64,000 nucleotides of DNA from Deltaproteobacteria bacterium (GTDB lineage: Bacteria > Desulfobacterota > Desulfobacteria > Desulfobacterales > UBA5852), in contig JAHLLS010000006.1 in NCBI GenBank assembly GCA_020444045.1, forward strand, positions 62,001 through 126,000. Reading direction: 5' to 3'. The position numbers and the translations under genes are program-made. The notes beneath the pieces were generated by a model. It saw only the letters and a program-made list of their open reading frames with translations. It ran no database searches and was not told where the DNA came from. The number at the start of each line of letters is the position of its first letter. Positions within the stretch are counted from its first letter, which is position 1. Positions 38,591-41,832 of this stretch are shown here, piece after piece.

Positions 38591-40574
38591 TCAGGCCGCG
38601 TGGGCCTCACCCTCCGGCGAAACCCAGATGGCCAGTCGTTCGTCCTCCTGAAGGACATGGTCGATATCCAGAAGCATCCGGATACCATTTTCGGCTTTGG
38701 CCATGGCAAGAATATGACGGGTGTCGATGCGGGCCCCGAAGGTCGGCGTGGGATCGATATGGCTGGAACGGATGGTCAGTACTTCGGAAACCGAATCCAC
38801 GGCCACACCGATACACATGGCCTGCCCGGCATAATCGGATTCCAGGATCACGATGCAGCTGCGGTCGCCGGAGGCAGGTGCCCCCAGGCCGAACTTGACC
38901 CGCAGGTCGATGACCGGAATGGTGCGGCCCCGCAGACTGATCACCCCGCGGATATAGGGCGGTGCCTGGGGAATGCTGCGAACGGGCAGCATGCCGATGA
39001 TTTCCTTGATGCGCAAAATGTCGATGCCGTATTGCTGGCCGTCCAGACTGAAGGTCAGGTACTTGCCCTCCAGGTTCAGCATGGATTTGTCTTCACCGTG
39101 CGCCACCTGGGCGTAGCGGGTGAGCAGGTCGACCGCGGTTTGATCGGCAATATGCAGATAGCCCGGCAGGTTGCTGGACACCCGGTCCTTGCAGGCCGCA
39201 TCGGCAAACCGGGTATCGATGAACGCCTCCAAGTCCACCGGCGTGCCGATACGCATGCGCTTGACCATGTAATCGTTCATGGTACGCAAATCTTCGATGG
39301 CCGGGTACAAGTCGCCGGTTTTGATGCCCTTCACCTCACTCAGCACGTTTTTTAGCACCGGTACTTTCAAGCCAAGCGTCTTGTTCGGATCCAGGAACGC
39401 CACCCCGATCTCGGCCGCCATTTCCGGTTTCTGGTCGATAAACTTGCCCGCCGTGACCAGCATCTCGGTAAATTCGTAGACCGCCTCGGTGTGGGGTTCG
39501 ATAAAGTCATCCCGTATGGTGACCACGCAACAGGGGTGGTTTTCCCACAGCTCGCTGCTCAGGAACTGCAGGTCGGCCGCTCCCGAAGCAATCGCTTTGG
39601 TTCCCAGAGGCTCGGCCACCATAAACCCCGCCGCGGCATTGTTGCTCTGCATGAACTCCTGCATCTTGATGGGCGCCACCACTTCGAAATTGACGTCGCT
39701 CTGTCCTTCGCCCACCATGCCGGGGGTGAGACCGATGCTGCTGAAAAACAGGTGGGCCAGCATGTGGTGCACGGACATCTTGTGCGGAATGTAAAAGGAC
39801 TGGGAACGGAAATAGTCGGCATAGGGTTCGGCATACCCTTCCCGGTTGCTGCGAACGAAAATGCTGCCGTTCTTGTGGGCCAGAAGGGTCAGCTTGATCG
39901 GCACGCCAAAATTGTAAAGATCCATGGCAATCGGCGCCAGGATCAGGGCGGCGTCCACCGCCCCTTTTTCCAGGGCGTCCTGGACGGGATTCCACCCCGG
40001 CATGCAAACGGTTTCCAGCTCGAAATGCTGGGGCTGCAGGTCGCCCTTCGCGATCAGGTGCTTCAACACTCCCAGAATGAGATGGTCCGTAATCTGGATG
40101 TGGGCCACTTTCAGTTTCACCCGGCCGTTGATTTTTTCACGCGGCCCTCGCGTTTGACCCGGCGGTTCGTTTCCAGCGCTGACCAAACCGAGGGCTTCGT
40201 CGATCTTGCTTTTCAATTCCGCTTCGTTGAAGGGCTTGGCCACGAAAGCGTTGACCCCGGCATCCACGGCTTTTTTCTCCTGGGCCTTGTCGCCCTCCCT
40301 GGCCGGTAGCCATCAAGAAAGGGATCGGTGCCGTGGCGGTGTTGCCCTTGACCCAGCAGAGCAGTTCGTAACCGTCCTTGTTGGGCATGTTCCAGTCGCT
40401 GATGATCAGGTCGACCTTGCGGTCCCCCTGGAGGATGCCAATGGCTTGGTTCCCGTCCACCGCTTCGACGATACCGTCAAACCCCAGCGATTTAAGGGTC
40501 TTGATTTCAATTTTCCGCATGACTGCGGTGTCTTCAACCAAAAGGATCTGGACATTTTTTGGATCAAAGGCCAT
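38591..40574 (-). pseudogene. Receiver - NrtA-like substrate-binding - CheW fusion, one-base frameshift
   Basis: Two overlapping frames rejoin into one 660-residue protein if one base is removed at about 40301-40306, in the minus-strand run ACCGGCC. Residues 1-125 are a receiver (ILLVEDTAVMRK; Asp60 in ISDWNMP; after correction FVAKPFNEAEL). Residues ~150-470 resemble NrtA/SsuA-type substrate-binding proteins (KLKVAHIQITDHLILGVLKH, VDAALILAPIAMDLYN). Residues ~505-645 are a CheW domain (YLTFSLDGQQYGIDI, YIRGVISLRGRTIPVIDLR). There is no signal peptide, so the binding domain would be cytoplasmic. Gene decay, sequencing error or programmed frameshift are all possible; the rest of the frame is well kept. 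Confidence 0.75.
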
Positions 40575-40822: not shown

Positions 40823-41010
40823 CACATCCTGGAGAACATCCGACCGCCAGGCGGTCACGCCGTCCATCTTTCTGAAATCTTTACAGACGCGACGCAAATC
40901 GTGGTTATCATCTGGGTGTTGACGCCGGATGCCGATCTAAAAGGTCGCGGCATGCTGCCAGCCAAACGGGCGCATCCGGCCGGCCGCCCATCCATAGGAA
41001 AGAAATCGCC

Positions 41011-41832
41011 ATGCGGAATATGTTGGGAGCCATCATTGTTTTGACCGTCACGGCAGCCAGTGCCGCCATCGTGATGGCGTCCTGTTCCCGATCTGGAGAA
41101 TCCAACGCCGGCCGCCACCCATTGCCCAAGGAGCCTGTCATGAAGCTTACCGCTCAGAACATGCCATCGCCGGGGACAATCCCGCCCATCGACACCGCCG
41201 CCCCGCAAATCTTCGATACCGCCACCTTTGGTTTGGGGTGATTCTGGGGCGTGGATGCCCAGTTTGGGGCCATCGAGGGTGTCATTCGAACACGCGTGGG
41301 ATACGCCGGAGGACAAACGGAAAATCCGGACTACGGCAACATCGGCGACCACACCGAAGCCGTGCAGGTGGATTTTGACCCGGAAAAGATCTCCTACGCA
41401 ACATTGCTGGCGGTCTTCTGGGAAAGCCATCGTCCGGACAGTCGTTCCTGGAAACGCCAATACCTGAACGCGGTCTTCTACCACGATGATCGCCAGGAGC
41501 AGGAAGCCCTGGCATCGAGGGCCGCCCTTGAAAAAAAGCTTGGCCGCGGCGTGCGCACGGAAGTGCTCCCGCTGCGATTGTTTACCAGGGCCGAGGATTA
41601 CCACCAGAAATATATCCTGAAACGCACGTCGGATCTCATGCGGGAGCTGACCCGCATGTATCCGAACCACGCGGACCTGGTGGATTCGACGGCCGTCGCG
41701 CGCCTCAACGGCTATGTCGGCGGCCACGGCAGCCCGGAACAACTCGCCCGCGAAATCGAAACCCTGGGACTGAGCCCGGAAGGCCGGAAGATGGTCGAAA
41801 ACATGGTCCGCGGGAAGGGTCCGTTCAACTAG
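41011..41832 (+). CDS. msrA: Selenocysteine-containing MsrA lipoprotein
   Basis: Peptide-methionine (S)-S-oxide reductase of 273 residues, with an in-frame TGA (41239-41241) as codon 77, exactly where MsrA has its catalytic cysteine: GLG-U-FWGVDAQF against the usual G-C-FWG. The frame continues without shift (TRVGYAGGQTENPDYGN, HTEAVQVDFDP). The only cysteine is Cys25 in VMASC, the likely lipidation site after a signal peptide, so there is no resolving cysteine. It should repair oxidised methionines on envelope proteins. AGGAAAG precedes the ATG. A candidate SECIS hairpin follows the TGA. A nonsense mutation is unlikely, given its position. Confidence 0.85.
41254..41274 (+). promoter_or_regulatory. 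Candidate bacterial SECIS hairpin in msrA
   Basis: Downstream of the TGA, GATG+CCC (41254-41260) can pair with GGG+CATC (about 41267-41274, one bulged C) with loop AGTTTG, starting about 20 bases after the TGA. An alternative stem CTGGG(G)C/GCCCAG (41244-41262) lies closer. Bacterial SECIS elements lie within the coding sequence just after the UGA and have a G in the apical loop, as here. Confidence 0.5.

Follow-up and report, generated by a model that had tools for sequence, protein, structure and literature searches.

A selenocysteine-containing MsrA gene with a predicted lipoprotein signal in a Desulfobacterales genome

Gene, domain composition and surroundings

The window, meaning the whole 64,000-nucleotide stretch of DNA analysed here, carries on its forward strand a gene at 41011-41832 which, when TGA is translated as selenocysteine (Sec, U), encodes 273 residues followed by a TAG stop, an assignment based on the translation, domain matches and homologues. 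A Shine-Dalgarno-like element read in the sequence, AGGAAAGA with its purine-rich AGGAAAG, lies upstream of the ATG (40996-41003, forward strand). The frame contains a single TGA (41239-41241) and no further stop; the corresponding residue, U77, sits within GLG-U-FWG at the MsrA catalytic position. The only cysteine codon (41083-41085) specifies Cys25, in the lipobox-like context VMAS-C. The coordinates and description given by a sequence-only reading of this DNA were correct, including the in-frame TGA at the catalytic site, the uninterrupted frame on either side of it, and a single cysteine coinciding with the predicted lipidation site.

Two domains are recognized in the product. The MsrA catalytic domain PF01625 (PMSR) spans residues 70-207 (41218-41631, forward strand; E 3.5e-41, 141 bits against a curated cut-off of 23.7), and PF20939, the selenoprotein MsrA helical domain, covers residues 220-265 at the C-terminus (41668-41805, forward strand; E 1.3e-6, 28.6 bits, likewise against a curated cut-off of 23.7). 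An AlphaFold2 model based on the alignment of the family has a mean pLDDT of 84.6 and places helices in this second region, at residues 207-267, together with an N-terminal helix at 2-24 and a disordered, low-confidence segment at 25-54. Among solved structures, those of the selenoprotein MsrA of Clostridium oremlandii (CoMsrA) are nearest in sequence (E 2e-55), and the best PDB match by fold is also this enzyme (4LWJ; 202 columns, 44% identity, TM 0.90 on the target). The MsrA fold and the G-[C/U]-FW motif are present, with the catalytic Glu and Tyr residues. In CoMsrA the active site comprises Sec/Cys16, Tyr47, Glu55, Gln89, Tyr90, His137 and Tyr140 (PMC4479559); mapped by position, these correspond to U77, Y108, E116, Q150, Y151, H198 and Y201, all seven of which are invariant in a 16-row alignment. 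The enzyme is thus of a known kind, a CoMsrA-type selenoprotein MsrA combining PF01625 with PF20939, and is predicted to act as a methionine-S-sulfoxide reductase.

The gene is followed downstream by genes for a PnrA-like substrate-binding protein, a phosphoribosyltransferase-like product and the ATPase of an ABC transporter. Upstream, on the opposite strand, is a receiver/NMT1/CheW gene, which also adjoins the Sec-MsrA gene in a genome of the same genus (L016/L107). None of these neighbours suggests an Msr-specific function. The receiver-NMT1-CheW gene is split in the window (38591-40574, reverse strand) into two overlapping open reading frames in different frames, and is intact in the same-genus locus as one 676-residue frame (L016:1225-3255, reverse strand); either this strain carries a frameshift or the assembly is wrong at this point.

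Conservation and recoding of the UGA codon

To define how the catalytic codon is kept among relatives, homologues were searched with a profile that carried C in place of U, so that cysteine-containing members would have been found. In the genome collection, the 15 nearest relatives that possess the helical domain (L016-L030: Desulfobacterota, plus two Planctomycetota and one Verrucomicrobium) all carry TGA at the catalytic site. Across 395 genomes of the phylum, 28 full-length matches were obtained, the own genome included, and each has TGA; below them, E falls from about 1e-74 to 1e-48, and the matches stop short of the helical domain and lack the TGA. Among 58 close relatives, 12 matches were found, of which 11 carry TGA; these samples overlap in part (L106 and L107 repeat L017 and L016). 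The twelfth match, L116 (G420:C25), lacks its 5' part, and with it the UGA and the catalytic motif; it is possibly a decaying copy. The different codon in close relatives that would have pointed to a mutation at this locus was therefore not seen. The sequence-only reading had also looked to homologues for Cys/Sec alternation at this position: TGA is indeed kept wherever the site is present, but no alternation occurs within the helical-domain subfamily in the sampled genomes, and it shows up only when the subfamily is compared with ordinary Cys MsrAs. Because relatives conserve the TGA, neither a sequencing error nor a recent stop mutation can account for it. In the 395 phylum genomes the helical domain is found strictly together with Sec, which suggests that this domain and selenium have evolved as one unit.

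The same reading had noted a hairpin with a G-containing loop after the TGA, and this feature is confirmed at 41254-41274 (forward strand), where comparison across the family identifies it as a bacterial SECIS element. Its stem pairs 41254-41260 with 41267-41274 (7 bp, one bulge) and closes a six-nucleotide apical loop, AGUUUG (41261-41266), which has G in second position and begins 19 nt past the UGA; the hairpin energy is -9.5 kcal/mol. Published bSECIS rules specify an apical loop of 3-9 nt, a stem of 4-16 bp, G in the first two loop positions, a distance of 16-37 nt from the UGA and an MFE <= -7.5 kcal/mol (PMC13188914), all of which agree with the window's own hairpin. Since an Rfam scan of the window returned no match, the element was evaluated by comparison. 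Taken alone, the window's hairpin is unremarkable (dinucleotide-shuffle z -0.62; synonymous-codon z -0.75). Across the family the hairpin goes far beyond what chance would give: in a synonymous-codon test limited to the hairpin region and with Cys MsrA genes as controls, the mean z was -2.46 in 41 Sec genes versus -0.26 in 29 Cys MsrA genes (Mann-Whitney p ~4e-10, not corrected for relatedness). The test was limited to this region because competing folds weakened the signal when it covered the 39 nt directly after the UGA (mean z -1.45). Per-sequence z values were preferred over raw energies as the fairer measure, many of the controls being from AT-rich marine genomes.

Covariation was assessed on 42 distinct sequences aligned without gaps downstream of the UGA. 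The consensus hairpin has a CCC/GGG tip and 92.9% paired cells, and its outer pairs co-vary (A-U, C-G, U-A and G-C at columns 18/32; U-A and G-C at 19/31). Double-sided compensatory cells number 30 versus a shuffle mean of 9.9, and the covariation score of 0.299, compared with 0.091 in shuffled alignments, is lost when the partner strand is slid. In the window and in L026, L070, L071 and L077 the pairing is shifted by one base (GCCC against GGGC), so that the loop has six bases, AGUUYG or GGUUCG. The hairpin is accordingly assigned as a SECIS element on the strength of the family, its own copy being not unusually stable for the protein sequence it encodes.

The machinery for Sec insertion, whose presence the earlier reading had proposed to check, is present in the own genome: a tRNA-Sec (75.6 bits, over the cut-off) with anticodon tca (UCA) by ARAGORN, and selA, selB and selD at 607, 360 and 376 bits, each over its curated cut-off. 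The selD match (L013, G000:C67:76962-77888) contains one in-frame TGA, and the selenophosphate synthetase of this genome is probably itself a selenoprotein. SelB and Sec-tRNA(UCA) would thus read the UGA at 41239 as Sec under the direction of the hairpin at 41254-41274, a step supported by comparison rather than by experiment. Taken together, 41011-41832 encodes a genuine selenoprotein MsrA of the CoMsrA kind. Gene callers that treat UGA as a stop split or lose such genes, so that a probable envelope repair enzyme may go unnoticed in sulfate reducers and their relatives.

Predicted export, recycling and alternative readings

The N-terminus resembles a lipoprotein signal, as had been suggested from the sequence. 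A signal peptide is predicted at residues 1-24 (41011-41082, forward strand), supported by helix 2-24 of the model and by a hydrophobic segment with a mean of 2.45; the hydrophobic stretch 8-23 is followed by VMAS-C, which presumably fits the general lipobox pattern, although the Met at lipobox position -3 counts against it. Lipidation and surface location are predictions, according to which the enzyme should be exported and lipid-anchored in the cell envelope via Cys25, facing the periplasm. In 50 loci gathered by the UFW motif, an export-type hydrophobic segment was recognized at the N-terminus of 44 members and a lipobox in 22 of those, as judged by a simple pattern rather than a trained predictor; the putative envelope-anchored form is common in the phylum. 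Twin-arginine (Tat) motifs such as RRSFLK occur at the N-termini of L072, L073, L078, L080, L081 and L112, which suggests that part of the family may be exported as folded enzyme by the Tat route.

The window protein has no resolving cysteine and indeed no Cys at all after U77, in agreement with the 1-Sec architecture described earlier. The same is true of 36 of the 50 family members, while 11 of the 50 have a cysteine in the C-terminal tail (e.g. ...ACPL, ...ACPV; often ACP-like, in L071, L075, L076, L077, L078, L079, L081, L083, L092, L094 and L113), which part of the family may have gained as a resolving residue. By analogy with CoMsrA chemistry, Sec77 would attack the sulfoxide and be converted to a selenenic acid, which a separate thiol protein or a second enzyme molecule would then have to reduce. 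Because the predicted signal places the enzyme in the envelope, the known donor, cytosolic glutaredoxin, would be out of reach. If export is correct, the question becomes how, in an enzyme that has no resolving thiol, a selenenic acid is reduced outside the cytoplasm.

When recurrent neighbours were clustered in search of a reductant partner, MsrB alone emerged as plausibly linked in function. In 11 of the 50 loci the Sec-MsrA gene has an msrB gene no more than about 1.2 kb away (L068, L077, L081, L082, L083, L088, L089, L090, L091, L093 and L113; one confirmed by Pfam SelR), and neither msrB nor a reductant gene stands beside the window's own copy. Most of the adjoining MsrB N-termini that were read start signal-like, several being signal- or Tat-like, which suggests that adjoining MsrA and MsrB may form an exported pair. 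In L081, a Tat-exported molybdopterin oxidoreductase-like gene (SUOX/MsrP-like by eye) precedes msrB and Sec-MsrA. The export-type segments in 44/50 and the msrB neighbours in 11/50 together point to a putative extracytoplasmic donor; the likeliest is a thioredoxin- or glutaredoxin-like protein of the periplasm that would receive electrons via a CcdA/DsbD-type membrane protein. Candidate parts of such an electron route in the own genome are two CcdA/DsbD_TM genes and one glutaredoxin gene, near a ferredoxin-thioredoxin-reductase-like gene named by eye. A CcdA-thioredoxin relay is perhaps used, as proposed by analogy with the exported MsrAB2 of S. pneumoniae, which receives its electrons through CcdA and lipoproteins of the thioredoxin fold (PMC3914529). 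The enzyme would repair oxidised methionine in envelope proteins or free Met-S-O, with MsrB complementing it for the R form. More broadly, and at slightly less than even odds, Desulfobacterota may possess a dedicated envelope repair system that pairs a lipid-anchored or Tat-exported 1-Sec MsrA with an exported MsrB and relies on a periplasmic donor able to reduce the selenenic acid where a resolving thiol is absent, some members having added a tail cysteine that could be a late-evolved resolver.

We favour, with a probability of roughly 0.88, an exported CoMsrA-type Sec-MsrA that is lipid-anchored at Cys25, has its UGA read as Sec via the hairpin and is recycled by a periplasmic donor; the envelope-anchored 1-Sec enzyme dependent on an external reductant, as first proposed, gains support from the Sec machinery, TGA conservation, the missing resolver and the lipoprotein-like N-terminus. 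That the TGA is instead a true stop, leaving a pseudogene or a short lipopeptide and a downstream frame from the GTG at 41251, agrees with a table-11 reading, which yields separate open reading frames including 41251-41832; yet every relative with the site has TGA, the flanking residues on either side are conserved, the hairpin covaries in a genome that encodes the Sec machinery, and a protein begun at 41251 would lack the catalytic residue, so that this explanation is barely credible.

Location and recycling leave somewhat more room for other views. The Sec-MsrA could be cytoplasmic, or only inserted in the membrane by its N-terminus, and recycled by cytosolic glutaredoxin like that of C. oremlandii, given that CoMsrA has no signal peptide and uses glutaredoxin (PMC4479559), that a glutaredoxin gene is present in the own genome, and that L021, L029 and L030 have no hydrophobic N-terminus, though these are perhaps truncated or mis-started. 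This is quite improbable in view of the signal-like segment retained by 44/50 members despite otherwise divergent N-termini, the lipobox or Tat motifs in many of them, and the low-confidence linker (residues 25-54) leading into the enzyme domain, which an anchored lipoprotein would be expected to have. Recycling could also proceed mainly through transient Sec-Sec or Sec-thiol dimers concentrated in two dimensions on the membrane surface, with the reductant acting on the dimer. CoMsrA, both as the Cys form and as the native selenoprotein, dimerises via its catalytic residue, and glutaredoxin resolves the dimer (PMC4479559); membrane anchoring would presumably raise the local concentration. As a donor is still needed, such dimers, which we consider unlikely to be the main route, would add to recycling of the lipid-anchored enzyme by a periplasmic donor rather than replace it.

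Comparison with known MsrA systems

No report of an exported or lipoprotein Sec-MsrA was found in the open-licence literature, and it is the export and location of the enzyme, rather than its Sec chemistry, that are less familiar. A resolver-less Sec-MsrA that needs an external reductant is already known, CoMsrA being exactly so (PMC4479559): it lacks a resolving Cys, its Sec form is 20-fold more active than the Cys form (PMC4479559, PMC4333827), and its reductant is glutaredoxin, not thioredoxin (PMC4479559). The window protein shares with this enzyme of Clostridium (Alkaliphilus) oremlandii (PDB 4LWJ, 4U66) the catalytic Sec, the absence of a resolving Cys, the catalytic and C-terminal helical domains and the same active-site residues. 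CoMsrA has 209 residues without any Cys, and its catalytic domain starts from residue 1 (PMC4333827, PMC4479559), whereas the window protein has an added predicted export signal, lipobox and linker.

The same genome also encodes two Cys MsrA-MsrB fusions (C69:21952 and C73:228058, the C73 copy with a signal-like start), which share the MsrA fold and the presumed reaction with the window protein but, unlike it, have a catalytic Cys and a fused MsrB and lack the helical domain. Repair of methionine sulfoxide in the envelope is likewise carried out by exported Cys MsrAB enzymes, in the CcdA-Etrx-MsrAB2 system of S. pneumoniae (PMC3914529) and the periplasmic MsrAB of H. influenzae (PMC9404787). 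These enzymes have a Cys with a resolving Cys and an MsrA fused to MsrB, whereas in the window the 1-Sec MsrA stands as a protein by itself and bears its own predicted lipid anchor.
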